The notes under the pieces: model-generated
The model's input: only the letters and a program-made list of their open reading frames with translations
Databases searched by the model: none
What the model was told of the DNA's origin: nothing
Origin: Parabacteroides sp.
Lineage (GTDB): Bacteria; Bacteroidota; Bacteroidia; Bacteroidales; Tannerellaceae
Length of the DNA: 32,017 nucleotides
Direction: 5' to 3'
Assembly (NCBI GenBank): GCA_028707405.1
Contig: JAQWBH010000017.1
Span: 1 to 32,017 of the forward strand
Shown: positions 5,222 through 27,765 of the stretch, piece after piece
Position numbering within the stretch: the stretch's first letter is position 1
Layout of the letters: each line of letters starts with the position of its first letter
Made by a program: the position numbers and the translations under genes

Positions 5222-6211
5222 TTACATTGCTGTTTCTCCATCTGAATCTGCTAACGTCACAAAAACAAAATCTCTTTTCTCTATTTGCTTTTTATATGGC
5301 ATAAACTTTTTTCCTCCGATAATAGGTCTGTTCCTTCCCACTGAACGTAATCCGCCTTTTTCTAAGACATGATCAATAGTTGAATGAGAAGAACCGCAAA
5401 AAAGAATGGGTATATGTAGCCTCTGCGTTACTTTTTTTGCGGCATTAAATATATTGTCAAATTCGTCTGTGGAGTTCAATCGACAGCGGAAATCAACCAG
5501 CTCCATTACAATTATATGTTTTTTATATACCGTCCTAAGTACAAAATAATTATTAGAAACTGTTGACTTATAAAAAGCATATTTATGCAAATTATTATTG
5601 AACCTCCACTCAAGAAAACAAGAATCCCTTTCGGGTTCAAGCAGATTGTAGTTATAAGGATTTATGTTGCTTATAAAAGGCCTCGTTGAGACTCGTTCAA
5701 ACGATTCTGTCTTTAGCTCGACTCTATCAAGATATTTATTAATAGGAACTGTTTTCCTTAAAAAACATGTAAATATGCCTAAAGGACTTACAATTCCAAT
5801 ATATTTCTTTATCTCACCGATTATGACATTTTTTAATTTTTTGTTTAAAGCAAAAGATGGATCGTTTGCCCCAGTCGATAATGTATCCCTATTTTGTGTC
5901 CAATAATAGAGAATAATATCCACACCCCAAGCATCGCTCCTTAATTGCTCATCAACAAATAGGTCGAAGCCCCATTGTGAGTCAATCTTTTCGTTATTAA
6001 AGAAATATGATACCGAAGAAAATAAATTCTGTCCTCTAATTATTCCTTCATTGTCAACAAGTATTAAAGAATTTGCTATCTCTTCTTCTTTTTTGGAAAA
6101 CCAAAAAGAGAGATAGTTACTCATATCTATATTCGATTTATCAGGGTAGTGCTCAATGTTATATTTGCATAAATCGATAAAATCTTCCTGTGTTGCTGGC
6201 CTAATTACCAT
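5222..6211 (-). CDS. GNAT-like N-acyltransferase, double-domain
   Basis: A 329-residue protein with the N-terminal start of a GNAT fold (MVIRPATQEDFIDLCKYN) and a second GNAT-like half from about residue 170 onward (FLEWRFNNN, then VLRTVYKKHIIVMELVDF). Such tandem GNAT proteins occur in Bacteroidota capsule loci. They may attach acetyl or other acyl groups to amino sugars or amino acids of the repeat unit. Together with the GNAT at 19.4-19.9 kb it is a candidate acceptor for the special acyl group made by the ACP block. It sits one base before the deacetylase start, and five bases separate it from the transferase upstream. Fold assignment is moderate and the substrate unknown. Confidence 0.6.
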   Translation of the reverse strand: MVIRPATQEDFIDLCKYNIEHYPDKSNIDMSNYLSFWFSKKEEEIANSLILVDNEGIIRGQNLFSSVSYFFNNEKIDSQWGFDLFVDEQLRSDAWGVDIILYYWTQNRDTLSTGANDPSFALNKKLKNVIIGEIKKYIGIVSPLGIFTCFLRKTVPINKYLDRVELKTESFERVSTRPFISNINPYNYNLLEPERDSCFLEWRFNNNLHKYAFYKSTVSNNYFVLRTVYKKHIIVMELVDFRCRLNSTDEFDNIFNAAKKVTQRLHIPILFCGSSHSTIDHVLEKGGLRSVGRNRPIIGGKKFMPYKKQIEKRDFVFVTLADSDGETAM

Positions 6212-9860: not shown

Positions 9861-10831
9861 TTCAGCACCTTCTGTATATTCCAATGAATATATCCAAGAT
9901 TTCTGTTAATATTATGCTTGTATGCCCAATCGCCTATAAACATAGAGAAACCTGAATAAAAAGAAATATATGGAAGCAAGGAAATAAAAAGTTTCTTTGT
10001 CTGTGATAGATACTTATGTCTTGCCTCTAAAGTTTCTAAGACACCTGTCAACAAGACCTTTTGATTTTCATTGCAAATAGGCAATTTTGTTACTCTCTTT
10101 GCCCACTCAATTTGAACCTCAATATCTTTAAGACGTTTCTGTAAAGTTGCACTACCAAATGAAAAAATTCTTGATATTCCACTGGAATTTGATGTATGAA
10201 TCCTATATTTTATGACCGGGGTATCTATTCTCCATAAAGAATCGAATAGGACAGCTATTCTTCCGCACTGCGAATCATGGCCTCCCTCAGGATAATTGAT
10301 AGACAAGTATAAATCAGCAACTTTACGACTAACGCACAGACAACAACCAAGAGTCTTAATATCGTAAAAGCTCTTATTCAGTTTCACTTTTGTTAACTTA
10401 TTAGAGTAGTCCCTTTTTTCTTCACGTTTAAAATTTCTTGCTCCTGTTTCATCGATAATAGTCCTCCCCCCGACCATACAACCCAGATTGTATTTGATCA
10501 TTAGAGAAGACAATTTTTCAATTTTGTTGAGTTCCCAAATATCATCTTGGTCTGAAAAGAAAACAATATCACCTTTTGTAAGTCCGATCGCTTTATAGAA
10601 ATTTTTCTGCCAACCTAAATTATATTCATTGATTTGGAGGATCCAGTTTGATAAATTATGTTCGATAATGAAACTATTGATTATTTGTATAGTATCATCT
10701 GACGAACGGTCGTCACAAATAATAACCTCATCGGGCTTTCTTGTTTGAAGATATATGGAATCAAGTTGCTCTAATATATAATGACTACCATTATTTGTAG
10801 TCATTGCAACTGATATTTTTTTATTATCCAT
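9857..10831 (-). CDS. Glycosyltransferase family 2 (GT-A), rhamnosyltransferase-like
   Basis: A 324-residue inverting GT-A enzyme. Seen: the opening ISVAMTTNNGSHYILEQLDS, EVIICDDRSSDDT, and the metal/nucleotide motif VFFSDQDDIWELNK, typical of GT2 enzymes that include rhamnosyltransferases. The ending, without clear membrane spans, suggests a cytoplasmic peripheral protein. With rfbA, rfbC and rfbD in the same operon, a role in adding rhamnose is plausible but not proven. It lies 12 bases after the small lipoprotein-like ORF and overlaps the polymerase start by four bases. Confidence 0.92.
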   Translation of the reverse strand: MDNKKISVAMTTNNGSHYILEQLDSIYLQTRKPDEVIICDDRSSDDTIQIINSFIIEHNLSNWILQINEYNLGWQKNFYKAIGLTKGDIVFFSDQDDIWELNKIEKLSSLMIKYNLGCMVGGRTIIDETGARNFKREEKRDYSNKLTKVKLNKSFYDIKTLGCCLCVSRKVADLYLSINYPEGGHDSQCGRIAVLFDSLWRIDTPVIKYRIHTSNSSGISRIFSFGSATLQKRLKDIEVQIEWAKRVTKLPICNENQKVLLTGVLETLEARHKYLSQTKKLFISLLPYISFYSGFSMFIGDWAYKHNINRNLGYIHWNIQKVLK

Positions 10832-10843
10832 TATTTCAAATTT

Positions 10844-10990
10844 TCAATATATATTCATTAAACCATCCGACTCTTTTGGTGGAAAATCCTTAGAACACGC
10901 TACCAGGATGCAGACAGATATAGTCAATAGGCACAATCTAGTCCAGAGATTCTTCTCCAATACTTTCTGTATTGTCATATCATTTTGCAT
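10844..10990 (-). CDS. 48-residue lipoprotein-like small ORF
   Basis: Translating the minus strand from the ATG at 10990 gives 48 codons and a TGA. The residues run from a charged start (KVLEKNLWTR) into a hydrophobic core (LCLLTISVCILVAC), and then SKDFPPKESDG. The piece LVAC-SKD is a good lipoprotein signal peptidase II site, with Cys at residue 32, leaving a mature peptide of only 17 residues. A purine-rich GAGGAGAT sits just before the start. It fills the space between the metallo-hydrolase remnant and the GT2 gene in the same direction. It may be a real tiny lipoprotein or the surviving 5' end of a longer lost lipoprotein gene. Confidence 0.5.
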   Translation of the reverse strand: MQNDMTIQKVLEKNLWTRLCLLTISVCILVACSKDFPPKESDGLMNIY

Positions 10991-11016
10991 TGTACATCTC
11001 CTCGTAATAACCATTT

Positions 11017-11326
11017 TCATATTGTACTATGTCCTAGACAAAATATATTTCCTTCCGTGAATTGGCAAATTCTTTGTTCAGACATTTTCGCATTTTGTTT
11101 ATTACTTTTTTGGATTTCATGGCCCGAGCAGATGTTTTTATCTACTGCAAGTTTGAGGACTCTATCCACCGACTCTTTTGCTTTAGTCTTATCAGCATTC
11201 GGCAATACGGTGACGACTGCTTTCTCTGGAATAAAAGCATCACCAGTAAAATAGGTGGTCACGTATAAACAAAATGTATGTCCGTGAACTGAAGACCTGG
11301 TTTACAATATAGTCAACATGAAGCAT
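11017..11326 (-). pseudogene. Remnant of an MBL-fold metallo-hydrolase gene
   Basis: Twelve bases after the LuxE-LuxC stop, an ATG at 11326 opens a frame reading MLHVDYIVNQVFSSRTYIL, the usual first strand of small MBL-fold hydrolases. It stops at 11240. In another frame, from 11262, the sequence continues TYFTGDAFIPEKAVVTVLP, then AKESVDRVLKL and DKNICSGHEIQ, resembling the C-terminal part of the same family (TGD...GH). The HxHxDH metal site and the middle of the protein are missing. I read this as an internal deletion plus frameshift that killed a hydrolase once co-transcribed with the acyl genes. Assignment is from remembered family sequence, not a search. Confidence 0.55.
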
Positions 11327-11338: not shown

Positions 11339-13810
11339 CTAGCACATCGGCCCAAACAAAGTATTCCACTTAACAAGCCTATCCACCAGTACAATCCCAT
11401 CCCACGGCATCTCAAAATTCAGCATACGGCCAATTTGAGGGAATCTTGCAGCACCTTTCTGGATAGCCTTCTCAGCATATGCAGAAGCCTGCTCCTTAGT
11501 AGCCTCAATTCCAATAGTCTGTATATCCTCAGTAATATAAGGCAATGAAGCATCAATGGAATCTACAGCGTGAACAAACAGAACACGAGAGTAAACTGGT
11601 TTATGCAGTCCTTCTTTCTCATCATAAAGAATAGAGAACGACATAGAATCACTTCCGTATGTCTTTCCGCAGAAGTCATATACTCCGCGAATGGAGTGAA
11701 TCGCAGACACATGCTCTGGTGACATAGTAGGTTTCGGTATCTGAAGTTCAGTCTTCTTCATAGATTCACAAAGCACCTCACAGAATTGCTCAGGAGATAC
11801 AGCTCCACTTTTTTCGATATAGAGATTATGAGGTGAAGCACATCCAGTCTGATCAAAGACTGACACATCAACAGAAAGTCTACGAGCCAGCTTCTTTGCT
11901 GCTTGCTCATCAGAAAGCATTTCCTTAGTTACAACAGCAAAGGAGAGCTTAGGACCAAAGATCACAGTCTCGCTATTGAACATAGAAGAATATCCGGCAA
12001 CAGTCTCAACAGCTTCACGGCCACCCCAAGCTATGCGAATATCAGCATTCTTAGACATGAACTCACCGTGTTTTACTGCATTACGAGAGAAGTAAACCAC
12101 AGATATAGTCTTCAACAGATCTGAGCCTTGGATTGTATAACCTGAACTCGTAGTATATGACAGTCCATCAAAAGCGCTGAGCAAAGTGGCAAATACACCA
12201 TTATCTTTAGCAGAGACTTTCAAAAGATTCACATTCTTGGTCATAATGCACTGCACCAAGGCGAAGAGTCCAAGTATCTGAACATTACCTGACATCCAGT
12301 GACAAGCAAGGCCTCTTGGGCTGGCTTTCAAGAAATGCTTTTCAGATCCATTGTATGTTTGGAAAGAATCAGCGTATGCAAGATTTCCTCTCAATCCGAA
12401 CTCTGCTATCTCTCTCAGATGTGCAGCAGAGCACCAACTGGAGAGGAACAGAAGTCCTTTATCTTTCAAGAAGGCATATTTCGGTTCAGAAATCCACTTC
12501 TTTGAGGCTTCACCGATGATACCGATCAATGCCTCAATAGGTTGTACCCTCAGCCAAGAAAGTTGATTTATAAGCGAAGCAACAATAGATTTGAATGTCT
12601 CTTCTGGAGAAATTCCTTCTGCAAGTTCACCTTTAAAGAATTGAATCTCAAGATTATTATCCTCAACACCACCTGAACTGCTCTTCTGGAAAGTGAGTTT
12701 ATTGGATAAAATATCACCACATCCCCTAACTTCGGCTTTCTTTAGCCGACCGGAAATCTTGAATCTTGTCCCAAGTCTTCCGTATGGACAAGGTTCATCA
12801 TAGATTATACCAAGGTCATCTGTCAAAACTGCATTCCCGGGGTAAGAATGAGGAATAGGAGTGATGAATTCCATCTTACCTTCTTTACCGGCAGGTTGTA
12901 TCTCATTTGTTACAATATCTCTTGTCAAGACCTTGACGTATGATGAAGCATGTTTACAACCACAAGGACAGTCTGGATAGTTCAGCCCCATCTGCTCTGT
13001 AAACCCATAGATGTCTATCACATCAACAGGCTCAAGTCCAAAACATGCTGAAAGCTGCTGATTGAAGAGAGACTTATCAATCTTTTCACTTTCAAGTTTC
13101 TTCCAACCACCAATATGGATAATCTTTGAGCCCTTAGGTAGCTGTATGGTGATACCCTTTGCCTGAATGGATTTAAGTACATTAGAATACATAATGTATG
13201 TAAAACCAAATACAACAACCGGCTGGTCAGCTGATATCTGAGCCACATACTCCTGAATAGCATCCACATCAAAATATGAAACGCCATCCTTTACTTTAAG
13301 AAAATAACCAGCCTTGGATGCAAAGCTCAGATATCCTGTTATGGCGGCAAACCGAGCTCCAAGAAGACTAATAGACTCAGACTTCGGGTCAATATCCATC
13401 ACCAAGAAAGGCTTACGTTCCTTCCCGATAAACTCCTGCATCACCTTCACCATCGCCTTTGCCTGACGTTTGGATGTGATTTTGTCTAAAACGATAGTAC
13501 TTGGCGTACCTGATGTGGCAGAGGATTGCAAACGAAGTTTGATGTCTTCCTTTGGCACAGAACTCAAACCGAATCCCAATTCTTTGAATACACTTACAGC
13601 CACAGGAGGAATATTATTTACTGACTTAAGTTCGGCATACGGATTAAACCTCTTTCGGTCACAGAACAGGTGGTACATCTCATTATGAACATAATGAAAT
13701 ATTAGTTCGTCCTGAAGTGATTTGAGATACAGAGCCTCAGTAGCAATATCTACCGAATAAACTGGTTCAGCAAATAGCTGGTCTATATTTGTAATAACCT
13801 CTTCGTTCAT
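11339..13810 (-). CDS. LuxE-LuxC fusion: acyl-protein synthetase plus acyl-CoA/acyl-protein reductase
   Basis: This 823-residue protein joins two enzymes known from bacterial luciferase aldehyde supply. Residues 1 to about 375 are LuxE-like: the phosphate-binding loop SSATSGTPS at 96-104, YGFTEQMG at 268-275 and a cysteine cluster CPCGC at 281-285. Residues from about 390 to 823 are LuxC-like, an aldehyde-dehydrogenase fold with the probable catalytic Cys657 in DQTGCASPHN. The known chemistry is acid + ATP to acyl-AMP, acyl transfer to enzyme cysteine, then NADPH reduction to aldehyde. No luxA or luxB is present, so the product is probably used for a sugar substituent. The start overlaps the acyl-ligase stop by four bases (ATGA). 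Both halves look intact. Confidence 0.85.
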   Translation of the reverse strand: MNEEVITNIDQLFAEPVYSVDIATEALYLKSLQDELIFHYVHNEMYHLFCDRKRFNPYAELKSVNNIPPVAVSVFKELGFGLSSVPKEDIKLRLQSSATSGTPSTIVLDKITSKRQAKAMVKVMQEFIGKERKPFLVMDIDPKSESISLLGARFAAITGYLSFASKAGYFLKVKDGVSYFDVDAIQEYVAQISADQPVVVFGFTYIMYSNVLKSIQAKGITIQLPKGSKIIHIGGWKKLESEKIDKSLFNQQLSACFGLEPVDVIDIYGFTEQMGLNYPDCPCGCKHASSYVKVLTRDIVTNEIQPAGKEGKMEFITPIPHSYPGNAVLTDDLGIIYDEPCPYGRLGTRFKISGRLKKAEVRGCGDILSNKLTFQKSSSGGVEDNNLEIQFFKGELAEGISPEETFKSIVASLINQLSWLRVQPIEALIGIIGEASKKWISEPKYAFLKDKGLLFLSSWCSAAHLREIAEFGLRGNLAYADSFQTYNGSEKHFLKASPRGLACHWMSGNVQILGLFALVQCIMTKNVNLLKVSAKDNGVFATLLSAFDGLSYTTSSGYTIQGSDLLKTISVVYFSRNAVKHGEFMSKNADIRIAWGGREAVETVAGYSSMFNSETVIFGPKLSFAVVTKEMLSDEQAAKKLARRLSVDVSVFDQTGCASPHNLYIEKSGAVSPEQFCEVLCESMKKTELQIPKPTMSPEHVSAIHSIRGVYDFCGKTYGSDSMSFSILYDEKEGLHKPVYSRVLFVHAVDSIDASLPYITEDIQTIGIEATKEQASAYAEKAIQKGAARFPQIGRMLNFEMPWDGIVLVDRLVKWNTLFGPMC

Positions 13811-15252
13811 TTCTTCAAACTAAGTCTTTGTATTTTACCAGATGAGGTCTTAGGTATCTCAGCGATACGCTGAAAAGCTACAGGCAGCTTATAGAACTCC
13901 AACTTCGGTTTCAGTTGATTGAGGATTTCTTTATCTGTAACATTGTCATCAGCAACGATGAAAGCTTTTACCACTTCACCCAATACACCATCTGGATCTG
14001 GAATACCGATGCAAGCGCTCTCCGAAATTCCAGGGATGGTATTAAGAATATCTTCAACCTCCATAGGAGCAACCTTCTTTCCTCCTACATTAATCATCTC
14101 TTTGATACGGCTCTTTAGGTAGATATAGCCTCTCTCATCTTGAACAGAACAATCCCCTGTACGGAAATATCCATCATAAAAGTCTGAAGCAAAACGTTCA
14201 AGCGACTCATTCCAGTAACTGCAAGTTACGTGATCACCTTTCACACAGAGTTCTCCTTCAGTCCCAACTGGAAGTTCTTTTCCATCTGGTGAGAATATCT
14301 TGATTTCACAGTTAGGAGAAGCGTGACCTGCTGTCAACAGGTCATCTTTTGATGAATGGAACTCCATAAAGGCACTTCTGGAAGCTTCAGTAGAACCATA
14401 GTGCATACAGATTCTTGTATTTGGCAGAAGTTTCATCAAAAGTTCCTTGTCAGCAGTAGGCATAAACGAGCTACCAATCTCTATGTACTTGAGCTGGTTA
14501 GCAAATTTGCCTATATACATACCACTCATCTTCTTGATGAAGCTCCAACTGGCAGGTACCATTCCAAATCCGGTCACATCACAGCGCTTCATCTCGCCAA
14601 AGAATTTTTTCATATTGGCAAAGGTTCCAAGCATTACCAGTGTACCGCCTTTTGAAAAAACGCATCTTACGCGCCCAAGGCCAAATGAATGACTGACAGG
14701 AAGTGCCAAAAGCTCTATATCATCAGCAGTATTCTGGATGAATGTGTTGATGTTAAGAGCCGCAGCCTGATGGTTCTTGAACGACAAGGCAACCCCCTTT
14801 GGGGCACCTGTCGTTCCAGTGGTAAAGAGGATATCAGCTATCTGGTTCATATCAGGCAGCGCGAACTCTGCCTTTTCCGTCCCTGATATTACATCTTCAA
14901 AAGGAATGGTTTTTCGATCTACTTTGTGGAGTGTACCCATCAAACAAACGGGCTTGGTTGACTCATTTATATAGCCGAACCTTGTCTCATTTGTATCAGG
15001 GTCTATAGGCACACAGATACCTCCTGCCAGATGGACACCAAAGTACACATATACAAATTCGATGTTTCCAGCAGCAGAGAGAATTACTCTGTCTCCTTTC
15101 TGAAGATTATATCTGTTTTTCAGGTTATGTGCAGCTATGAGACAGTATTCCCACAACTGCACATAGCTTACCTGAGTCTCTCCAGAGATAAGAGCTATCT
15201 TATCTGGAAAGACTATTGAGTTCTGATATAGCTGTTCCTCTATGGATTTCAT
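13807..15252 (-). CDS. AMP-forming acyl ligase (class I adenylate-forming; acyl-CoA/ACP synthetase)
   Basis: A 481-residue ANL-family enzyme that should activate a carboxylic acid with ATP and pass it to CoA or to the carrier protein encoded next door. Seen: the ATP loop TTGTTGAPKGVA at about 144-155, HYGSTEAS at 284-291, GYFRTGDC at 361-368, and the C-terminal catalytic lysine in PKTSSGKIQR (Lys473). All core motifs are present, so it should be active. It follows the ACP gene with a one-base overlap and overlaps the LuxE-LuxC start by four bases, so the three are coupled. The acid used is unknown; the size suits short or medium acyl groups as well as hydroxy acids. Confidence 0.9.
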   Translation of the reverse strand: MKSIEEQLYQNSIVFPDKIALISGETQVSYVQLWEYCLIAAHNLKNRYNLQKGDRVILSAAGNIEFVYVYFGVHLAGGICVPIDPDTNETRFGYINESTKPVCLMGTLHKVDRKTIPFEDVISGTEKAEFALPDMNQIADILFTTGTTGAPKGVALSFKNHQAAALNINTFIQNTADDIELLALPVSHSFGLGRVRCVFSKGGTLVMLGTFANMKKFFGEMKRCDVTGFGMVPASWSFIKKMSGMYIGKFANQLKYIEIGSSFMPTADKELLMKLLPNTRICMHYGSTEASRSAFMEFHSSKDDLLTAGHASPNCEIKIFSPDGKELPVGTEGELCVKGDHVTCSYWNESLERFASDFYDGYFRTGDCSVQDERGYIYLKSRIKEMINVGGKKVAPMEVEDILNTIPGISESACIGIPDPDGVLGEVVKAFIVADDNVTDKEILNQLKPKLEFYKLPVAFQRIAEIPKTSSGKIQRLSLKK

Positions 15253-15491
15253 TATAACTTCCCTTCCACTACTTTTACTATGTCCTTTACATCTTCTATT
15301 TCCATCATCTCTTCCGGCTCGAAGTTGATTTTAAAAGCCTCTTCAACTGAAGAAAGGATTGTCAACTGCCCAACGGAATCCCACTGAGGGAAGTCACCGA
15401 CGGTCGTTTTGTCGTTAATCTGATCAGGAGTTGTCTCGCAAACTCCAGCTATAATTTCAAATACTTTGCTTTGAATTTCTGATTTTTCCAT
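15252..15491 (-). CDS. Acyl carrier protein (first of two in the operon)
   Basis: A 79-residue, acidic, helical carrier protein. The phosphopantetheine site is WDSVGQL with Ser39 in the expected mid position. It would hold acyl chains as thioesters for the ketosynthases and reductases around it. I chose the ATG at 15491, because it lies 13 bases after the stop of the upstream SDR gene. A longer frame starts at a TTG inside that gene and adds eleven poorly conserved residues. The strong local coupling (SDR, ACP, ligase) points to a dedicated carrier, not the housekeeping AcpP. Confidence 0.9.
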   Translation of the reverse strand: MEKSEIQSKVFEIIAGVCETTPDQINDKTTVGDFPQWDSVGQLTILSSVEEAFKINFEPEEMMEIEDVKDIVKVVEGKL

Positions 15492-15504
15492 TTTGATTAT
15501 TTTA

Positions 15505-16251
15505 TTATCTGACACCCCCGTCAACTCTTAATACTTGTCCATTTATAAATGATGCTTCATCTGATGCAAGGAATAAATAGGCATTCGCAATCTCTTCTGG
15601 AGTTGCAAGACGATGCATGGTTGAAATATCTTCCATTGATGCAATAGCCTTCTCGCCCATTGCCAGTGCAAAGCCAGTTTTGGTAAGACCTGGGGCAATA
15701 GCATTGACTCTTATCTTTGACGCTCCAAGTTCCCGAGACAACACTTTGGTAAACAGTATCATTGATGCCTTTGTAGCCCCATATACTGAATTACCCATAT
15801 CGCCATCAATACCGGCAATCGAAGCCGCATTGATGATAGAACTTGTACCGTCTTTCACAATTACTGAAATTAACGACTGTGTTATCTGAAGTTGAGCAAA
15901 ATAATTGACTTGAAATACTTTCTTAACGTCACTCATTTTCGTGAAGGGCAAGATGGCAAGATGTGGCATACCCGCATTATTGACAAGAACACTTATCTTC
16001 AGTTTCAACGCTTTGATCTGTTTCATTCCGACTTTAATGGCCTCTTCATCAGAGAAATCAAAATAGAATGGGTAGATATTTATACCGTATGCCTTCATAA
16101 GTTCTTCAACGAACTCATTGTATTGTGGAGTCTCGCATAAGCTGCAAGTTATCAAGTCTGCCCCTTCGGCTGCAAACTTCTTGGAAATTTCTTTTCCGAT
16201 TCCACCATCTGCACCTGTAATACAGACTATTTTACCTGTATATTTTCCCAT
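15505..16251 (-). CDS. FabG-like short-chain dehydrogenase/reductase (SDR 1)
   Basis: A 248-residue classical SDR. Seen: the cofactor loop ITGADGGIGKEIS at 11-23, NNAG at 91-94, and the catalytic Ser144, Tyr157 and Lys161 (NAASIAG, then VYGATKAS). The ending FLASDEASFINGQVLRVDGG is the usual FabG C-terminus. The best guess is NADPH-dependent reduction of a 3-keto-acyl-ACP to the 3-hydroxy-acyl form. It directly follows one ketosynthase gene (one base), and an equivalent pair lies upstream, suggesting two condense-and-reduce units. Other SDR roles cannot be excluded from sequence alone. Confidence 0.88.
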   Translation of the reverse strand: MGKYTGKIVCITGADGGIGKEISKKFAAEGADLITCSLCETPQYNEFVEELMKAYGINIYPFYFDFSDEEAIKVGMKQIKALKLKISVLVNNAGMPHLAILPFTKMSDVKKVFQVNYFAQLQITQSLISVIVKDGTSSIINAASIAGIDGDMGNSVYGATKASMILFTKVLSRELGASKIRVNAIAPGLTKTGFALAMGEKAIASMEDISTMHRLATPEEIANAYLFLASDEASFINGQVLRVDGGVR

Positions 16252-16252
16252 A

Positions 16253-17308
16253 TCAAATTTCGATTAAAGGTAAGACTTTAAATGGTGTTGTTTCAATATA
16301 AACTGCAGCCCAAGACAACCCTGCACCAAAACCACTCATCAACAATTTATTATTCTTTGATTCTAATTGTTCTCTAATCCTAGTTACCATAGTCATAGGA
16401 ATAGTTCCACTACTGGTATTACCGAAAGTATAAAGACAATATGGTGTCTTTTCTTCCGGAACCTTAAGCTTCTTGCGGATTTTATCATCAATATATTGAT
16501 TTGCCTGATGAAGAAGAAGATAATCAATATCATCCACGTTGATTTCAAAATGGTCGCACAATGCTATGATGTCTTTTGGTACCCTTATTGTTGCAAAAGC
16601 GAATACGTCCATACCCTCCATTACAACATGTGTCTTATTTCGAATAATTCCTTCATCAATCTTTTCCATTTTCAGAGAACTCTCCGTAATAGGGTTACGA
16701 ACACCAGAATGAGGAGCTATGATAGCATTCATCTGAGAACCATCACTCATCATATTGAACAGCATTGGTTTTGCTTCTGGATCATATTCCAAGGCAGTTG
16801 CAGTTCCAGCATCTCCATGAAGAGGCCATACCGTCTTATCTAGATACGACATTATTTTCGATGGAGTATCTCCAACAAGCATCAATGCTCTCTTTATAGA
16901 GCCCAAAGACAAAAGAGACCCAATTACAGAAAGGCCATAACAATAACCAGAACATGCCATCGGTACATCTATAGTATAACAGCTGCATGGAAGACCCATC
17001 TTACCTTGAATGACGGTAGCAGTGTTTGGCTCAATATAATCTCTTGAAACTGAAAGGTAGATTAAAGCATCTATGGAGTCCTTTCCCCAACTGATTTCTT
17101 CCAGTAGCTTTTCAGCTGCTGCTTGACAATAGTCCGAACAGACCATTCCGTCAGGAGCCAATCTACTTTCTGTTACGCCGGTCAGAGCCATAACCTTTTC
17201 TGCCTCCCCTGGTGCAAAACATTCCAAGTTCTTTATGTCTTTCTTTTCTTTCGGAACAACTGCCGCCAATCCTACTATTTTAACATTTTGAATTTTAATA
17301 AATGCCAT
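16253..17308 (-). CDS. 3-oxoacyl-ACP synthase III-like ketosynthase (KASIII 1)
   Basis: A 351-residue thiolase-fold enzyme. The Cys-His-Asn triad is intact: Cys119 in VPMACSGYCYG, His267 in LLLHQANQY and Asn297 in YTFGNTSSGTIP. KASIII enzymes condense an acyl-CoA primer with malonyl-ACP. With the SDR gene that follows it, it would add one two-carbon unit and reduce the keto group. It is clearly a paralogue of the second ketosynthase (18.1-19.1 kb): same length class, same start pattern and shared ending. The two differ enough to suggest different primers, for example acetyl-CoA for one and a hydroxyacyl chain for the other. Confidence 0.93.
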   Translation of the reverse strand: MAFIKIQNVKIVGLAAVVPKEKKDIKNLECFAPGEAEKVMALTGVTESRLAPDGMVCSDYCQAAAEKLLEEISWGKDSIDALIYLSVSRDYIEPNTATVIQGKMGLPCSCYTIDVPMACSGYCYGLSVIGSLLSLGSIKRALMLVGDTPSKIMSYLDKTVWPLHGDAGTATALEYDPEAKPMLFNMMSDGSQMNAIIAPHSGVRNPITESSLKMEKIDEGIIRNKTHVVMEGMDVFAFATIRVPKDIIALCDHFEINVDDIDYLLLHQANQYIDDKIRKKLKVPEEKTPYCLYTFGNTSSGTIPMTMVTRIREQLESKNNKLLMSGFGAGLSWAAVYIETTPFKVLPLIEI

Positions 17309-17310
17309 TG

Positions 17311-18057
17311 TTATCTAATTGAATATCCACCGTCAATTATTAAATTTGTTCCTGTTGTCCACAAAGAAGCATCAGAAAGAAGATAAATCATTGCCCATGC
17401 CACCTCTTCTGGTCTTCCATATCTTTTTAACGGATATATCTTCTTATCTTCTTCAATCTGCTCTGAAGAAACGGTACCATTGCTTAGTATATTTGTTTCT
17501 ACCATTCCTGGGCAAACAGCATTTACTCGAATTCCTTTTGCTGATAATTCTAATGCGGCTCCTTGAATAAATGCGCTGATGGCACCTTTTGTACTAGCAT
17601 ACATCGTATTACCAATGCTTGTTCGACCTAAACCAGACAGTGAGCTCGTAAAAACAACCGAAGCTCCCTTCTTTAGTTTTTTCATCTTTACTAAGGATCT
17701 TAATATAATGATAGGCGCAATAGTATTGACTCCCATCATATTTTGAAGTACATCTTCGTTTATGAATTGTACTGGGGCAAATTCGGTATAACCAGCATTA
17801 TTAATCACCCCTTGGATTTCGGGTAACTTCGCTACCATTTTTGTTATTTCCGAGAAATCGATTAAGTCACATAACAATATGCTGTGTCCTGTGCCATCAA
17901 GTGCAGAAAAGGTTTTTTCAAGCCTTTCTTTATTTCGAGCAGTAATGATTACCTTTGCTCCCAACTTTGAACATTCGATAGCAGCACTTTTACCAATTCC
18001 AGAAGAAGCTCCAGTTATCAAGATAGTTTTACCCTCGAGAGAATATGGATTATACAT
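17311..18057 (-). CDS. FabG-like short-chain dehydrogenase/reductase (SDR 2)
   Basis: A second 248-residue classical SDR with ITGASSGIGKSAA near residue 14, INNAGYTEF at about 85-93 and the catalytic Ser139, Tyr153 and Lys157 (TSSLSGLG, then MYASTKGA). The ending has TTGTNLIIDGGYS. It lies two bases from one ketosynthase start and three bases after the other ketosynthase stop. It should reduce the 3-keto group made by one of them. It is not a close copy of SDR 1, so the two may differ in substrate length or product stereochemistry. Confidence 0.88.
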   Translation of the reverse strand: MYNPYSLEGKTILITGASSGIGKSAAIECSKLGAKVIITARNKERLEKTFSALDGTGHSILLCDLIDFSEITKMVAKLPEIQGVINNAGYTEFAPVQFINEDVLQNMMGVNTIAPIIILRSLVKMKKLKKGASVVFTSSLSGLGRTSIGNTMYASTKGAISAFIQGAALELSAKGIRVNAVCPGMVETNILSNGTVSSEQIEEDKKIYPLKRYGRPEEVAWAMIYLLSDASLWTTGTNLIIDGGYSIR

Positions 18058-18060
18058 AAA

Positions 18061-19119
18061 CTATATTTCAATTAAATCTGGCACAATAATTTTATCTGTT
18101 TCAAAGTATATGCTTCCCCACGAAAGACCTACTCCAAAGGCACATCCCAATATCTTCATTTTTGATGATGTCAGTTCCTTCTGGCGTTTGACTACAAGAG
18201 TTAGAGGTAATGAAGCACAAGATGTATTACCAAATTGTTCCATGCAATAAGGCATTTTATCAGCATCTATCTTAAGCTTGGTCCTGATCTTTTCATTAAG
18301 GAACATATTTGCCTGATGAAAAGGGAAACAATCAATTGAGTTTAGATCAATTCCATAATGCTCACATAACCCCATAACACTTTTTGGAGCCTTAGATATT
18401 GCAAAAGAGAATACACTCATTCCATCCAACCGGCTATGCAATCTGGTCATTATTTTACCTTCTCCCAGATCTTCATAAATAAGACTCTTATTTGTTGTAG
18501 GGTTGCGATAACCGCCATCAGGAATAATAATAGTATCCTTTCCTGATCCGTCAGTTGCCAGATGAACTTTTATTCCATTACTATTAGAATCGTATATTAG
18601 AGCAGTTGCAGTTCCAGCATCTCCAAATAGAGGATAAGAGGTTTTGTCCTTCACACAATTCTGTCTGGTAGTCAAATCCCCACATAGCAACAAGGCTTTC
18701 TTAATACAGCCATTTAGCAAGAGAGAGGAAACAACACTCATTCCATATACCCAACCAGAACACCCAAGAGATATGTCAAAAGCCAAACACTCCTTGTTTA
18801 AGTTTAAGCGTTCTTGAAGGACACAAGCAGTAGCAGGAAGAATATAATCTGGAGTCTGAGAGACAAAGACCAGAGCATCTATCTGTGTCTTCTCCCAATT
18901 TAATTCATGAATTAGCTTCTCCGCTGCCGTAAAACAAAAATCGGATGAGCAACAACCTTCTTGTGCAACCCTCTTTTCCTCAATGCCTGTAGACAATATG
19001 AACTTTTCACGTTCCTCTGCGTTGGAGAATAATGTGGAATCACTATTTCTTTCAATATTCTGAGGAACGCAAGCTGATATTCCAACCAACTTAACTGAAG
19101 GAATAGATAAATATGCCAT
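18061..19119 (-). CDS. 3-oxoacyl-ACP synthase III-like ketosynthase (KASIII 2)
   Basis: A 352-residue KASIII-type enzyme with an intact triad: Cys120 in ISLGCSGWVYG, His268 in FPFHQANMF and Asn298 in EQFGNTSCAS. The start codon overlaps the stop of the second ACP gene by one base, so carrier and ketosynthase are made together. As the first ketosynthase in the direction of transcription, it may do the first condensation, with KASIII 1 doing the second; the order is inference. An acyltransferase role (some KASIII-like enzymes form esters) is the main alternative. Confidence 0.93.
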   Translation of the reverse strand: MAYLSIPSVKLVGISACVPQNIERNSDSTLFSNAEEREKFILSTGIEEKRVAQEGCCSSDFCFTAAEKLIHELNWEKTQIDALVFVSQTPDYILPATACVLQERLNLNKECLAFDISLGCSGWVYGMSVVSSLLLNGCIKKALLLCGDLTTRQNCVKDKTSYPLFGDAGTATALIYDSNSNGIKVHLATDGSGKDTIIIPDGGYRNPTTNKSLIYEDLGEGKIMTRLHSRLDGMSVFSFAISKAPKSVMGLCEHYGIDLNSIDCFPFHQANMFLNEKIRTKLKIDADKMPYCMEQFGNTSCASLPLTLVVKRQKELTSSKMKILGCAFGVGLSWGSIYFETDKIIVPDLIEI

Positions 19120-19349
19120 TAAAGTTTACTTTTCACAGTATTATACAAATCTTCAACCGTTACAGAAGCTCTCATATCATCGCCCTTCAGTGTGACATCA
19201 TATTCTTCATCTACCATAGCAATTATTGACAACGCTATTAATGATGAATACTCGTCCAAATCGTGGAACACTGTTGTCGCTGAAATTTCACTTGCATCAG
19301 TCTCGTCGAACTGGTCTGCAAAACTCTTAATAAATTCGTTCAGTTCCAT
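19119..19349 (-). CDS. Acyl carrier protein (second), with SS instead of DS at the pantetheine site
   Basis: A 76-residue acidic helical protein. The expected carrier motif is read as EYSSLIALS, so that Ser36 aligns with the phosphopantetheine serine but the usual Asp before it is Ser35. The rest (IAMVDEEYDVTLKGDDMR, TVEDLYNTV) is typical of carrier proteins of polysaccharide loci. It lies two bases after the GNAT gene and overlaps KASIII 2 by one base, so it is the likely carrier from which an acyl group is built or handed to the GNAT. The changed residue may alter recognition by the host phosphopantetheinyl transferase. Confidence 0.82.
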   Translation of the reverse strand: MELNEFIKSFADQFDETDASEISATTVFHDLDEYSSLIALSIIAMVDEEYDVTLKGDDMRASVTVEDLYNTVKSKL

Positions 19350-19351
19350 AA

Positions 19352-19900
19352 TTAATATATTTTGATTTTGTTTATATTATTTCTTATTTTTTGAGATTTT
19401 AATAGATAATTCTGTTTAGTAATCTTCCCATACAAATATGGGATTCCATCATTATCAAGCGTTTCGCCATCCCATTCGCAACCAAATCCTTTATTAAGTG
19501 AAAGTACATGAGTATTATCTTTATACACCCATACGTCTAGATAATTCAGACATAGTACATTAAAAATGAAGTCATCGTGTAATATGCCTGTTTCTGAATT
19601 TTGAATAGAATTTCCTATTGAACAAAATCTTCCAACCTCAGCATGATTTTCTATTATGTTATAAACGCTTACCGTCCCAATACGTCGATGTTCTTTATCC
19701 TCAATGATAAAGTAGTAACTATCATTATCTGCCCTCTGCTTGGTAATCCATGCACGCTGCTGTTCAACCGTAACATTTAGAAATGGCAGATATTTAGATA
19801 TCTCATGATTATTTCTAATCTCCAAGATGAATTCTGTGTCATCCTCTGTTACTGAGCGAAGGTTAACGAGCTTTCCTTCAAGAATACCGTCGTAAATCAT
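19352..19900 (-). CDS. GNAT-family N-acyltransferase, RimJ/PseH-like
   Basis: A 182-residue GNAT protein: GKLVNLRSVTEDDTEFILEI is the typical RimJ/RimL opening, followed by YYFIIEDKEHRRIGTVSVYN and a C-terminal part with LNKGFGCEWDG. In sugar loci this type (PseH, WecD-like) acylates an amino group of a nucleotide sugar. It overlaps the aminotransferase by one base and is followed two bases later by the second ACP. This gene order strongly suggests that it transfers the ACP-made acyl group to the new amino group. Plain acetyl-CoA as donor remains possible. Confidence 0.82.
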   Translation of the reverse strand: MIYDGILEGKLVNLRSVTEDDTEFILEIRNNHEISKYLPFLNVTVEQQRAWITKQRADNDSYYFIIEDKEHRRIGTVSVYNIIENHAEVGRFCSIGNSIQNSETGILHDDFIFNVLCLNYLDVWVYKDNTHVLSLNKGFGCEWDGETLDNDGIPYLYGKITKQNYLLKSQKIRNNINKIKIY

Positions 19901-21030
19901 TATTTTACAAATTTATTTACGATAGAAATTATCTTCTCCACCTCTTCATCGGTAAGCCACATGTGCATAGGAAGGGTTATCAAATGCTCGCTGACTTCAC
20001 TTGCATATTTGCAGGTTCCCTTAGCATAGAGATACATACTGTACTCTGTATTGTCACGATAGTGAACACCTCCATAGATGTCATTCTTCGCAAGTTCACC
20101 CAGAAGACCTTGACGATCCGGAACAATCAACTCATAGATATGATAAGAGCACTCATCATGATAAGGAGCCCTTACAATCTGAATTTTCGGATTATTCTCA
20201 AAAGCCTTGTTGTACATCTCTACGATTTCGCGACGACGTGCATTGTCACGGTCAAGATACTTCAACTGCACAAGTGCAATAGCAGCCATTATGGCATTAC
20301 CATTATACTTGTATCCAACATAGTCAACATCATACTTCCAAGCGTATGTTCCATTGTTTGAACGTGCATACGTGTCTTTGTTGATTCCAAGCCATGCAAG
20401 TTGACGAGCAATCTTATCATTTTCCGCATCAGCAAAGCAAATCATGCCACTATCCCCTGTAGGAAGATTCTTTACAGCTTGATATGAATAGACGGTGACA
20501 TCTACACCATCCCAAGTTCCCGGGCAAACACCATTGACACGAGTTCCTGACATATGTGCTCCATCAAGGATAAGCTTCAAGTTATGCTTTATGCAAATTT
20601 CAATAATTTTGTCGAGCTGACCGACACGTCCGCCATAGCCCACAAAGATGACGGCTCTGGTCTTGTCGTTGATTTTCTTCTCTACATCTACAGGATCAAG
20701 GCAAAGATACTGATCAACATCAGCAAATGTTGCATGCATGTTTTCATATAAAATAGCATGATTGGTAGATACGAAAGTGATAGGAGTAGAGATGATCTCA
20801 TCACCATCGTGCCAACCATTCTGCATCTTCAGAATCTTTGCTGCAAGGTGAAGACCAACGGTATTAGAGTTGAGGTAATAAGCATTCTTATGACCTGTGT
20901 ACTCTTTCCAGGCATTCTCAAACTCTACTGTTTTGAAACCCATACCTGTCCAGCCTTTTTCAAGGCACTCTCTTACAGCGTCGAGACATTCATCAATCTC
21001 GAATTTTGGCTTTAATACTTGAATACTCAT
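19900..21030 (-). CDS. DegT/DnrJ/EryC1/StrS-family sugar aminotransferase
   Basis: A 376-residue PLP enzyme. Seen: the fold opening LKPKFEIDECLDAVRECLEK with GWTGMG, AYYLNSNTVGLHLA, Asp156 in LILDGAH, and the PLP lysine Lys187 in SYQAVKNLPTGDSG. It should convert a 4-keto (or 3-keto) 6-deoxy nucleotide sugar to the amino sugar with glutamate. Possible substrates in this locus are the UDP-4-keto-QuiNAc made by the CapD-like enzyme, or dTDP-4-keto-6-deoxyglucose from the rhamnose pathway. The active-site block differs from PglE, so I do not name the product. It is coupled to the GNAT that would acylate the product. Confidence 0.92.
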   Translation of the reverse strand: MSIQVLKPKFEIDECLDAVRECLEKGWTGMGFKTVEFENAWKEYTGHKNAYYLNSNTVGLHLAAKILKMQNGWHDGDEIISTPITFVSTNHAILYENMHATFADVDQYLCLDPVDVEKKINDKTRAVIFVGYGGRVGQLDKIIEICIKHNLKLILDGAHMSGTRVNGVCPGTWDGVDVTVYSYQAVKNLPTGDSGMICFADAENDKIARQLAWLGINKDTYARSNNGTYAWKYDVDYVGYKYNGNAIMAAIALVQLKYLDRDNARRREIVEMYNKAFENNPKIQIVRAPYHDECSYHIYELIVPDRQGLLGELAKNDIYGGVHYRDNTEYSMYLYAKGTCKYASEVSEHLITLPMHMWLTDEEVEKIISIVNKFVK

Positions 21031-24436: not shown

Positions 24437-24770
24437 ATGAGTAAAGATACAAAAAAACCCAATACCAACCCCATTTCTGAGATCAATAATTTTTCTTCTA
24501 CCCTTTTTATCCTTTCTCAGGTTTGCAAAAAGCCAATTGAGATGAGCTTTTCAGTAGAGAAGATTTCTTTAGATGGAGGATTACTATTATTACGTGAGAT
24601 AGAAGCCCGGAGCGGCATATTACAATCTATTACCAACTGTATTGGGGAGGATCGTCACTCTGGCTATATAAATACATTCAATAAGTTCAATGTTGGCTCA
24701 GCGGGTATTCCAAATTGCCGCGGGATACGAAGATGCCAATGATTGCAATACGTTGAGGGACGATATAATC
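24437..24770 (+). pseudogene. Truncated, frameshifted IS1380-type transposase
   Basis: The frame from 24437 gives a start with MSKDTKKPNTNPISEI, then SVEKISLDGGLLLLREIEAR and CIGEDRHSGYIN, as in IS1380 transposases. Around 24685-24690 the family sequence jumps to another frame and continues MLAQRVFQIAAGYEDANDCN and TLRDD to about 24764. The full protein is over 400 residues, so about three quarters are lost, including most of the catalytic core. It is dead by both frameshift and truncation. Confidence 0.8.
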
Positions 24771-25022
24771 CGAATCGCGCAATAATGAAATCCAATACGT
24801 AGTCTCATTGGATTCTTTGAGAGCAATACTTAACTTTGAAACAAAGTCGGCTTTTGATTGGGCAAATTCAGCTTTATAAACCAAAGCGCCAGTAGCCGTC
24901 CCCGCTTTAAGAAACTGTTTAGATAAAACAAATTCTTTATGTTCAGAAACAATCTGTTTGTAAACCCGAATCACCCCCAACGCAAAAGCATACGACTTCT
25001 CCCTTAAAACACGCTCCCCCAT
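24687..25022 (-). pseudogene. Four-helix-bundle protein gene (S23/IVP type), 3' end replaced by IS sequence
   Basis: The frame starting at 25022 reads MGERVLREKSYAFALGVIRV, QFLKAGTATGALVYKAEFAQ, SKADFVSKLSIALKESNETT and YWISLLRDSDYI, the typical core of the small four-helix-bundle proteins linked to 23S rRNA intervening sequences. After the residues DYI (near 24770) the frame reads backwards through the IS1380 fragment, so the fourth helix is missing and the last 25 or so residues are foreign. The role of this family is poorly known. It may still make a truncated protein. Confidence 0.72.
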
Positions 25023-25043
25023 TTTTCAAATTTCATTAATCAC

Positions 25044-25099
25044 TATTAGTTCTTCACTGTTAACTGTTCACTATTGGTTTTTAGTTTTTAGTTATTAGG
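25044..25099. repeat. Heptamer array, 8 units
   Basis: Eight in-phase 7-base units: tattagt, tcttcac, tgttaac, tgttcac, tattggt, ttttagt, ttttagt, tattagg. It lies upstream of the four-helix-bundle start. The units are the same family as the arrays at 27.8 and 29.2 kb, partly in reverse orientation. Confidence 0.7.
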
Positions 25100-25106
25100 A
25101 GTTTCA

Positions 25107-25211
25107 TTGAACCTCCCTTATACACCGATTGAACACTCCTTATACACTCCTTATACAACGTCTGAACGACCATTGAACAACCATTGAACAAGCCTTGAAC
25201 AACCCTTATTC
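25107..25211. repeat. Ten-unit tandem array, period 11 bp
   Basis: Hexamers begin at 25107, 25118, 25129, 25140, 25151, 25162, 25173, 25184, 25195 and 25206, exactly 11 bases apart. They read TTGAAC (five times), TTATAC (three times), CTGAAC and TTATTC. The five bases between them vary, often ending in CC or CA. The array is about 100 bases upstream of the HTH-protein start. Spacing close to one helical turn suggests repeated protein binding on one face of the DNA, but no known site is recognised. Confidence 0.75.
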
Positions 25212-25311
25212 AAAATGCAGATCAGCGCAGAAAAATGTCAAAACGTCCATGGAGGTATTACTTTTTTCAAAAAATCCTGATTAATGCATATAAATTTTAA
25301 AAATCAACAAT

Positions 25312-25596
25312 ATGAAAACACAACATCAAATTCAGGTTATGGCAGCCTTTGCCGAACTTGGTCAGCGCCTGCAGCGCATCGAAAAAAACCAGAGCCTTTT
25401 AAACCCGGCCAGACCCGAGTGGCTCGACACCCCGGATGTTTGCAATCAGCTCCACATCTCAAAACGGACCCTCGGAAGCTACCGCGAAAAAGGATACCTG
25501 GGTTTTACCAAGATCGGGGGGAAGGTATTCTACAGCCAAACCGACATCGACAATTATCTTAACGACCATAAGGTAAGAAAGGAGGGACGGTCATGA
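25312..25596 (+). CDS. Helix-turn-helix (excisionase/MerR-like) DNA-binding protein
   Basis: A 94-residue protein with an N-terminal helical section (AAFAELGQRLQRIEKNQ) and a winged HTH_17 domain from about residue 38: WLDTPDVCNQLHISKRTLGS, YREKGYLGFTKIGGKVFYSQ, TDIDNYL. Such proteins are common in Bacteroidota mobile elements as regulators or excisionase-like factors. It is the first gene of the plus-strand module and overlaps the next gene by four bases (ATGA). The 11-bp array upstream is its obvious candidate target, by inference. A second frame in the same place is a shadow. Confidence 0.85.
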   Translation: MKTQHQIQVMAAFAELGQRLQRIEKNQSLLNPARPEWLDTPDVCNQLHISKRTLGSYREKGYLGFTKIGGKVFYSQTDIDNYLNDHKVRKEGRS

Positions 25597-25775
25597 AAAC
25601 GCGCGTGGTCAAAAACTGGAAAACCTCCCTGCTCGGCATCATCCTGCTGGTTGTATCTGTCATCCTGCTATTCCTGAAAATCCTCACCGGCGGCGAATTC
25701 ATCGCCCTCCTGCCAACAATCCTCGGACTTCTCTATTTACCCGATGAAATTCTTAAATCTAAATTAAAATCCTAA
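25593..25775 (+). CDS. Small two-helix membrane protein, holin-like
   Basis: A 60-residue protein with a basic start (MKTRVVKNWK), two hydrophobic segments (about 12-30, SLLGIILLVVSVILLFLKI, and 34-50, EFIALLPTILGLLYLP) and a charged tail (DEILKSKLKS). Size, topology and position right before a muramidase gene match phage holins; there is no family signature, so holin is an inference. The start overlaps the HTH gene stop. The TAA stop is the first three bases of a heptamer array. Confidence 0.6.
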   Translation: MKTRVVKNWKTSLLGIILLVVSVILLFLKILTGGEFIALLPTILGLLYLPDEILKSKLKS

Positions 25776-25800
25776 TTCCTCATTCCTCATTCCTAATTCT
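25773..25800. repeat. Heptamer array taattcc/tcattcc, 4 units
   Basis: Four in-phase units (taattcc, tcattcc, tcattcc, taattct) between the holin-like gene and the muramidase gene. The first unit supplies the TAA stop codon of the holin-like gene. Confidence 0.75.
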
Positions 25801-25806
25801 TCTCTC

Positions 25807-26319
25807 ATGGCTTCTTTTGAAACATATCTAAAAAAGCTCCTCCAGCTTGAAGGAGGTTATTCCAACGACCCTGCCGATCGCGGTGGTTTAACCAATCATG
25901 GCATTACGCAAGCCACCTGGCAGCGGATCGGGTACGATAAGGACGGCGATTGCGATGTTGATCCCGACGACCTCCTGCGCTTGACCCATCAGGACGTTTC
26001 AAAAATCCTGCGACATTTTTACTGGAACCGCTGGCGGGCCGATGAAATTGAAAGTCAGCCCGTGGCCTGGATCTTAGTCGATTGGCTCTGGTGCAGCGGC
26101 AAATGGGGCATCATCATTCCCCAGCGCATCCTGGGAGTTGAACCCGACGGGTATGTCGGGAAAATAACCCTCCACGCGGTGAACCAAACCTGCTTTTCGT
26201 CGTTCCATAAGCAATTGATCAACGCGCGGCTCCGGTTTATCCTCGACATCATAGCCCGCGACCCCACTCAGCAACGATTCCGCAACGGCTGGATTGCCCG
26301 CGTTAACTCCTTTAAATAA
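25807..26319 (+). CDS. GH108-family peptidoglycan muramidase (phage-type endolysin)
   Basis: A 170-residue lysozyme-like enzyme that should cut the glycan strand of peptidoglycan. The signature LEGGYSNDPADRGGLTNHGI holds the catalytic Glu15. The middle has the usual ATWQRIGYDKDGDC block and the C-terminal part a putative peptidoglycan-binding domain (RILGVEPDGYVGKITLHAVN). There is no signal peptide, so it needs a holin to reach the cell wall, which fits the gene before it. The length is normal for the family. The gene is distinctly richer in GC than the polysaccharide genes. Confidence 0.93.
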   Translation: MASFETYLKKLLQLEGGYSNDPADRGGLTNHGITQATWQRIGYDKDGDCDVDPDDLLRLTHQDVSKILRHFYWNRWRADEIESQPVAWILVDWLWCSGKWGIIIPQRILGVEPDGYVGKITLHAVNQTCFSSFHKQLINARLRFILDIIARDPTQQRFRNGWIARVNSFK

Positions 26320-26400: not shown

Positions 26401-26436
26401 TTCGAAACAAACTGATAATTTAAAAACAAATGCCTT

Positions 26437-27708: not shown

Positions 27709-27731
27709 TTAGGGACAACATCTTTCAATGC

Positions 27732-27764: not shown

Positions 27765-27765
27765 A

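Follow-up and report, generated by a model that had tools for sequence, protein, structure and literature searches.

A predicted two-module set for building an N-acyl side chain, with a fused LuxE-LuxC reductase, in a polysaccharide locus of Parabacteroides sp.

Layout of the ten-gene run

A run of ten genes in a polysaccharide locus of Parabacteroides sp. was analyzed; it combines two acyl carrier proteins (ACPs), two FabH-like ketoacyl-ACP synthases of type III (KASIII; here KAS1 and KAS2), two short-chain dehydrogenases/reductases (SDRs), an acyl ligase and a fused LuxE-LuxC protein. The window, that is, the whole 32,017-nucleotide stretch of DNA to which all coordinates refer (contig C309 of genome G000), comes from an assembly of 5.53 Mb in 620 contigs that is 97.8% complete and 5.96% contaminated; related loci are labelled L0xx or L1xx and genomes G###. 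The ten genes are intact, lie on the minus strand from 21030 down to 11339, and each scored over the cut-off for at least one Pfam family. In the direction of transcription, which is the order of the list below, they are separated by -1, 2, -1, 3, 2, 1, 13, -1 and -4 bases. A first-pass annotation of this DNA had described a compact run of two ACPs, KASIII and SDR genes with a ligase, a LuxE-LuxC protein and a GCN5-related N-acetyltransferase (GNAT) behind an aminotransferase, and this description was confirmed, with gaps ranging from -4 to +13.

19900..21030, minus strand: DegT-family sugar aminotransferase (PF01041, 255.6 bits; best NCBIfam model TIGR03588 PseC, 207.7 bits, below its cut-off of 423.5)
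19352..19900, minus strand: PseH-like GNAT, proposed as the N-acyltransferase taking the acyl group from ACP1 (PF13302, Acetyltransf_3, 41.7 bits; TIGR03585 PseH, 44.3 bits; the slot before ACP1 is common to other loci)
19119..19349, minus strand: ACP1, carrier of the KAS module (PF00550; Ser aligned in 16/16 ACPs)
18061..19119, minus strand: KAS1, FabH-like ketosynthase (PF08545/PF08541; C-H-N triad; PDB 4efi, 207 bits)
17311..18057, minus strand: SDR1, putative ketoreductase of the KAS module (PF13561; groups with upstream SDRs in the tree)
16253..17308, minus strand: KAS2, FabH-like ketosynthase (PF08545/PF08541; C-H-N triad; PDB 4efi, 186 bits)
15505..16251, minus strand: SDR2, putative reductase of the LuxE/LuxC core (PF13561; groups with core SDRs, including those of KAS-less loci)
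15252..15491, minus strand: ACP2, carrier of the LuxE/LuxC core, ATG start (PF00550; homology to L002 begins at 15491)
13807..15252, minus strand: AMP-forming acyl ligase (PF00501, 190 bits; PF13193, 51 bits; a gramicidin synthetase A-domain and malonyl-CoA synthetase are among the PDB relatives)
11339..13810, minus strand: fused LuxE-LuxC of 823 aa, acyl-protein synthetase plus acyl-thioester reductase (PF04443, PF05893; Cys364, Cys657; model m8c7153863993)

Since DNA homology to the related locus L002 begins at the codon at 15491, ACP2 most likely starts at that ATG (79 aa) and not at the TTG at 15524 given in the open reading frame list. In ACP1, the phosphopantetheine-site Ser is present and the usual preceding Asp is replaced, the family showing EYSSL or EWSSL. 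We also observed that this Y/W-S-S, in place of the usual D-S, is conserved among the aligned ACP1 orthologues.

Catalytic residues and the LuxE-LuxC fusion

The catalytic residues, which had been noted as present in the window, were also found throughout the relatives. Among the KAS sequences, the Cys was present in 23/24, the His in 24/24 and the Asn in 24/24; the Ser, Tyr and Lys of the SDRs were present in 38/38; the ligases carried the A3 Lys in 32/33 and the A10 Lys in 33/33; and the ACP Ser was found in 21/21 ACPb and 11/12 ACPa sequences. As for the fusion, Cys364 of the LuxE half was present in all 41 sequences with a residue at that position (42 aligned; L085 is gapped), and Cys657 of the LuxC half in 40/40 aligned sequences.

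Pfam places the LuxE domain at residues 3 to 373 (351 bits) and the LuxC domain at residues 423 to 815 (245 bits), and both halves match the LuxE and LuxC of PDB 7xc6 with the acyl-carrying Cys residues aligned. The fusion scored 96.7 bits against the LuxC luminescence equivalog model (cut-off, 750) and 83.1 bits against the LuxE one (cut-off, 550); with scores so far under the cut-offs, a luminescence-type long-chain role was rejected. An AlphaFold model of the fusion had a mean pLDDT of 77 and a pTM of 0.49, a domain packing too weak for placing both Cys residues, and Cys364 falls within the low-confidence stretch from 357 to 380. A Foldseek search with this model returned the 7xc6 LuxC as first match (21% identity in the fold alignment), and PaaK adenylating enzymes matched part of it. 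An acyl arm that shuttles between the two Cys residues is therefore something we infer, given the low confidence around Cys364 and the pTM of the model. PDB searches with the ligase, KAS1 and KAS2 indicated no substrate.

Conservation of the core among relatives of the fusion

Next, a single scan of genome contigs with the fusion yielded 28 loci, of which 23 are labelled Bacteroidota and three Clostridia-type (L010, L023 and L024); the other two are labelled Candidatus Colivivens equi and "archaeon", the latter being the fragment L028. Because 26 of these 28 encode a near-full-length fusion, a fusion unique to the window was rejected. The ligase adjoins the fusion in all 26 near-full-length loci, and ACP2 precedes the ligase in 24/24 loci whose DNA extends that far, a count that excludes L003 and L005 (contig ends) and L027 and L028 (partial fusion) and was not taken from the open reading frame selection in which antisense frames masked some ACPs. 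Both adjacencies are more than chance. The relatives share a constant part, ACP2-ligase-fusion, and differ in their upstream content.

This variation concerns three kinds of genes, counted in the loci where each could be determined (the same four loci were omitted throughout). An SDR was found in 19/22 loci (L012 and L016 also omitted), being absent from L019 to L021; it either adjoins ACP2 or is separated from it by a transketolase or glyoxalase-like gene. KASIII genes were found in 12/20 loci (L008, L012, L016 and L024 also omitted). Finally, a split transketolase (Transketolase_N; Transket_pyr plus Transketolase_C) lies upstream of ACP2 in 16/22 relatives (L008 and L024 also omitted), for example at 6505-8311 of L002.

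Among 393 genomes of the order, the fusion was matched in 40 (E<=1e-3), with more than 1000 bits in only four, the window's genome included, and KAS1-like genes (E<=1e-70) occurred in 64, suggesting that the KAS module is much commoner than the full-length fusion. In a sample of the phylum, LuxE was matched in 84 of 395 genomes, in 68 of them over the cut-off. A plasmid search gave 78 records with a LuxE-LuxC match, and three of these loci were opened: an annotated 3-oxoacyl-ACP reductase follows LuxE-LuxC directly in Pantoea and three genes later in Priestia, and none follows it in the Chloroflexota locus. We also observed that the fusions of L010 (Saccharofermentans), L023 (Clostridia) and L024 (Lachnospiraceae) are 58 to 67% identical to that of the window, which could reflect cross-phylum transfer or mis-binned contigs.

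The run is composed of two modules

To place the two SDRs, a midpoint-rooted FastTree was built from 37 sequences, leaving out fragments shorter than 200 aa (two of L006, one of L029 and one of L024). The tree separates 24 core SDRs, among them SDR2, from 13 others, among them SDR1. The core side includes the SDRs of the KAS-less loci L004, L009, L013, L015 and L023 and those of the loci with unfused LuxE and LuxC (L082 and L092 to L094), suggesting that SDR2 belongs by descent with ACP2, the ligase and the fusion, and SDR1 with KAS1, KAS2 and ACP1. By sequence and synteny, then, the run resolves into a KAS module (GNAT-ACP1-KAS1-SDR1-KAS2) and a putative carboxylate-reduction core (SDR2-ACP2-ligase-LuxE/LuxC). 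A tree of the KAS sequences separated KAS1 and KAS2, which may be the enzymes of a first and a second elongation, only partly. Ten KAS relatives (L107, L109 to L115, L117 and L119) belong to another conserved set, KAS-SDR-C22, with a GNAT-like protein in nine of the ten and an ACP in eight.

Other arrangements of the core bear on the role of SDR2. The unfused loci L093 and L094 read ACP-SDR-ligase-LuxE-LuxC, and L092 does likewise with LuxC in two pieces. In L080, the order is ACP-ligase-iron-containing alcohol dehydrogenase (Fe-ADH)-LuxE/LuxC, and its sole SDR groups with the 13 non-core ones. An Fe-ADH where others carry an SDR is consistent with the reduction of an aldehyde to an alcohol, which fits both enzymes. 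Together with the reductase that follows LuxE-LuxC in two of the three opened plasmid loci, this argues for an SDR acting on the aldehyde that LuxC would release.

The gene in front of ACP1 was also compared. Of 16 KAS-bearing loci (12 from the fusion scan, the window, L028, L079 and L080), 14 could be checked, setting aside L028, whose 309-aa upstream gene was not scanned, and L029, which is cut. In 13 of these, ACP1 is preceded by an N-acyltransferase: seven are of the GNAT type (the window; L002, assigned because its protein is 86% identical to the GNAT of the window; L006, with a PseI gene in between; L007, L011, L018 and L079) and six of the hexapeptide or PglD type (L014, L017, L022, L025, L026 and L080; only cluster or profile assignments in the case of L017, L022, L025 and L026). 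That this slot is filled by two unrelated folds speaks for the acyl-transfer step itself. As to the sugar, aminotransferase, PseI or PglC-type genes lie near several KAS-bearing loci: PseI scored over its cut-off in L006, L011 has a PseH-like GNAT just under the cut-off, and L014 has PglC-type and PglD-type genes. L014 comes from Bacteroides luti DSM 26991 and holds a close counterpart of the window run, in the order PglD-ACP1-SDR-KAS-SDR-ACP2-ligase-fusion. Overall, the earlier proposal of a dedicated line that attaches an acyl group to an amino sugar is strengthened by the conserved acyltransferase, and the line is not an indivisible unit, as seen from the SDR tree and the gene content.

A gene cassette is exchanged between near-identical loci

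When the window was compared with the DNA of L002 by blastn, long flanks on both sides were 90 to 93% identical. Between them, positions 2904-8320 of L002 and the following part of the window aligned only in pieces of 64 to 76% identity.

15491..19111, minus strand: exchanged cassette KAS1-SDR1-KAS2-SDR2 between ACP1 and ACP2 (blastn against L002)
10826..11267, minus strand: remnant of a metallo-beta-lactamase (MBL)-fold hydrolase region, 3' of the fusion (gene complete in L002, 13269-13862)

The borders of the exchange lie 8 bases past the ACP1 stop codon and exactly at the ATG of ACP2. Between the two ACP genes, the order KAS-SDR-KAS-SDR of the window corresponds to SDR-KAS-KAS-SDR followed by the two transketolase genes (TKN-TKC) in L002. 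Other pairs with near-identical fusions also differ upstream, namely L004/L011 (91.4%) and L009/L029 (90.4%). On the 3' side of the fusion, the MBL-fold gene is complete in L002, where it comes after short MBL-like and malate-dehydrogenase-like fragments, and is degraded in the window.

The likeness between the two loci extends to the whole window, which matches G744, the genome of L002 that is assigned to another family, at 90 to 97% DNA identity over long stretches; two genomes of the same genus and two of the same family gave no fusion match. This likeness may be due either to horizontal transfer or to mis-binning. If the exchange of cassettes between near-identical capsule loci proves general, Bacteroidales may vary their surface chemistry with the sugar backbone genes unchanged.

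Surroundings of the run

The genes around the run point to a polysaccharide locus. Upstream lie RmlD, RmlA, RmlC and a NUDIX gene, and downstream come genes for two glycosyltransferases, a polysaccharide deacetylase-like protein, a Polysacc_synt_2 protein and a PglC-type sugar transferase, together with a weak Wzy_C match under its cut-off. A Pfam scan of 30 window proteins showed no member of flagellar or NeuB/PseI families; the remaining genome was not searched for these. A 329-aa protein without a Pfam match is encoded at 5222-6211, and its L002 counterpart starts GNAT-like by eye, so that it is a possible second acyltransferase. The right part of the window (24687-30498) contains a 23S rRNA IVP-like open reading frame and GH108 lysozyme-like, DUF4062 and UDP-GlcNAc 2-epimerase-like genes.

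Proposed pathway and alternatives

Most probably, the run produces a small, purpose-made side chain that is placed on an amino sugar. In the reading that we prefer, to which we give a probability of roughly 0.6, it is a two-module set that would make a short hydroxylated N-acyl group for a 4-amino sugar of a capsule or O-antigen; that the two modules act in series is rated lower. Which reactions take place, in what order and how the modules connect is inferred here. In the core, the ligase would load a short acid onto ACP2 or CoA; the acyl group would pass to Cys364 of the LuxE half and then to Cys657 of the LuxC half, where it would be reduced to the aldehyde; and SDR2 would reduce the aldehyde to the alcohol, giving a tetronate-type hydroxy acid (dihydroxybutanoate), or one closely related to it, which the ligase could activate again. 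In the KAS module, KAS1 and KAS2 with SDR1 may lengthen a starter on ACP1 by one or two two-carbon steps, the starter being either the hydroxyacyl unit of the core or a plain acetyl- or acyl-CoA. Once complete, the chain would be moved by the GNAT from ACP1 onto the amino group that the PseC-like aminotransferase introduces.

Several observations weigh against this proposal. Each module is also found alone: the LuxE/LuxC core lacks KAS genes in 8/20 determinable loci, and only three (G000, G744 and G449) of the 64 genomes with KAS1-like genes are among the four with a full-length fusion, indicating that the modules need not share a product. L118 holds KAS, ACP, ligase, two SDRs, KAS, ACP and PglD, with PglC-type and aminotransferase genes nearby, in the absence of LuxE/LuxC. 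The exchanged cassette includes the core SDR, which moved along with the KAS genes and was not retained with ACP2, the ligase and the fusion, and this speaks against a strict split into modules. L010, the exception among the 14 loci checked, has KAS genes with an alpha/beta hydrolase in front, and neither ACP1 nor an acyltransferase was found there; the window GNAT itself scores under the PseH cut-off (44.3 versus 93.1 bits). Lastly, the window locus lacks the split transketolase that is common in the relatives, and when the window's assembly was searched with the second subunit, only a 677-aa homologue of 31% identity was returned. A transketolase as an essential part was rejected on these grounds, and the scheme of the window may not be the common one.

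The separate occurrence of the modules would also be expected if the run made two acyl products for different sugars or positions, the KAS module giving an N-acyl group of the 3-hydroxybutanoyl or 3,5-dihydroxyhexanoyl type and the core one of the tetronate type. In L080, the two modules are separated from each other within a single locus and have an ACP apiece, and the GNAT, ACP1, two KAS and one ketoreductase of the window parallel wfpC-G, for which the available excerpt of the source names no LuxE/LuxC (PMC6519341). We nevertheless regard this explanation as unlikely, as the run has only one recognised N-acyltransferase and one aminotransferase, and the core SDR sits in the cassette with the KAS genes, as would fit a shared chemistry. 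The transketolase in turn raises the question of whether the core serves to make the aldehyde as such, for use in C-C bond formation or amination and not in N-acylation. The split enzyme would be a possible aldehyde-using partner; the runs of L019 to L021 consist of transketolase, ACP, ligase and fusion only; the Glu that binds thiamine diphosphate is present in 18/18 second subunits (a motif test of the first subunits returned none); and glyoxalase-like, MBL-fold, aldo-keto reductase and lactate/malate-dehydrogenase-like genes also lie beside the core. Against this stands the window locus, with no transketolase and nothing closer in its assembly than the homologue mentioned above, which makes an aldehyde product rather unlikely. 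Finally, LuxE and LuxC act on long-chain acyl groups in bioluminescence, and ten KAS relatives sit in the different conserved KAS-SDR set, as might be expected of a lipid or fatty-aldehyde pathway that merely adjoins polysaccharide genes. The luminescence scores of the fusion (97 and 83 bits for cut-offs of 750 and 550) and the neighbours in the relatives, which include PglC, PglD, PseI, aminotransferases and glycosyltransferases, render such a pathway very improbable.

The proposed N-acylation by two modules can be extended, tentatively, to a single programmable line, a reading we consider credible but doubtful. The LuxE-LuxC core would supply a tetronate-like starter, the KASIII pair would extend it to a polyhydroxylated C6-C8 N-acyl group, and relatives would divert the aldehyde by way of the split transketolase; swapping the cassette between ACP1 and ACP2 would alter the side chain, and hence the surface antigen, with the carriers, ligase, reductase and acyltransferase retained. 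If true, this would be a polyketide-like, cassette-exchangeable system of side-chain assembly for bacterial capsules.

Comparison with known systems

In Vibrio cholerae O1, the antigen is a perosamine N-acylated with tetronate; in the rfbK-O/wbe genes (VC0248-VC0252), the ligase RfbL/WbeL (471 aa) and the carrier RfbK are assigned to 2,4-dihydroxybutanoate, and RfbN has a LuxE domain, according to the available excerpts (PMC3441752, PMC12208996, PMC4772473). The window shares with this system an ACP, an AMP-forming ligase and a LuxE/LuxC reductase in a surface-polysaccharide locus. We take RfbM to be an Fe-ADH, and RfbN presumably has a LuxC part as well. On this assumption, an Fe-ADH lies between ligase and reductase in V. 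cholerae and is absent from the window, where SDR2 is found upstream of ACP2 instead, and the order ACP-ligase-Fe-ADH-fusion of L080 is that of the tetronate genes. Compared by gene descriptions, the window further holds two KASIII, another ACP and another SDR.

The same five enzyme classes, namely ACP, FabG, AMP ligase, luxE and luxC, are described for flagellin glycosylation islands (Aeromonas group II and enterobacterial types), in Aeromonas beside pse genes (PMC7874193, PMC4875605). In the window they form one run in the order SDR-ACP-ligase-LuxE-LuxC, and the Bacteroidota loci L093 and L094 have the set of the Aeromonas group II islands in the same order, as does L092, whose LuxC is divided in two. 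In the islands, as far as the excerpts of these reports go, LuxE and LuxC are separate genes, no KASIII is named and the target is flagellin, whereas the window has a fusion, KASIII genes and a capsule-type locus. That LuxE/LuxC occur in glycan loci alongside an ACP, a ligase and either an SDR or an Fe-ADH, probably as a carboxyl-to-alcohol core, leads to a concrete prediction, a dihydroxybutanoyl group or similar. By arithmetic only, a dihydroxybutanoyl residue has a mass of 102.03, which added to Pse5Ac7Ac gives 376.15. Aeromonas piscicola AH-3 has these five enzyme classes in its island, and its flagellin is described in the accessible part of the source as bearing an unknown 102-Da moiety and a 376-Da pseudaminic acid derivative. 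These masses equal the computed values, 102 being a nominal mass that other formulas fit too.

N-acyl builders similar to the KAS module have also been reported. In Flavobacterium psychrophilum, wfpC-G (two ketosynthases, ACP, ketoreductase and acyltransferase) are proposed for a 3,5-dihydroxyhexanoyl group on a 4-amino sugar, and the R-group genes vary between strains with otherwise similar loci, as stated in the excerpt of that report (PMC6519341). The Pseudomonas (P. syringae) viosamine island, with vioS, vioR, acp and vioB encoding a KASIII, a ketoreductase, an ACP and an acyltransferase, is described, with mutants, for 3-hydroxybutanoyl-viosamine (PMC3927599, likewise in excerpt). Their common content, a KASIII, a ketoreductase and an ACP beside an aminotransferase and an N-acyltransferase, is found in the window. 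The vio island has one KAS and no LuxE/LuxC core in its excerpt, nor is such a core mentioned in that for wfp. Their PglD/VioB hexapeptide acyltransferase, of the PglD type in wfp, is replaced by the GNAT in the window, and the PglD type occurs in L014, L017, L022, L025 and L026.

The Photobacterium LuxC-LuxE fatty acid reductase (PDB 7xc6) consists of two proteins, compared with the single fusion of the window, and both halves are related to it. Among the matches listed from the open-licence literature, there was no paper on the combined set, on the fusion in Bacteroidales capsules or on a split-transketolase partner. The first-pass assumption that only single genes of this type were known does not hold in view of the sets published, as excerpted here, for the flagellin islands, V. 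cholerae O1 and F. psychrophilum; its view of the full set with a fused reductase as unusual has to give up the fusion, which is near full length in most of the relatives' loci. The parts are of known kinds, and it is their combination, and their exchange between relatives, that is unusual.

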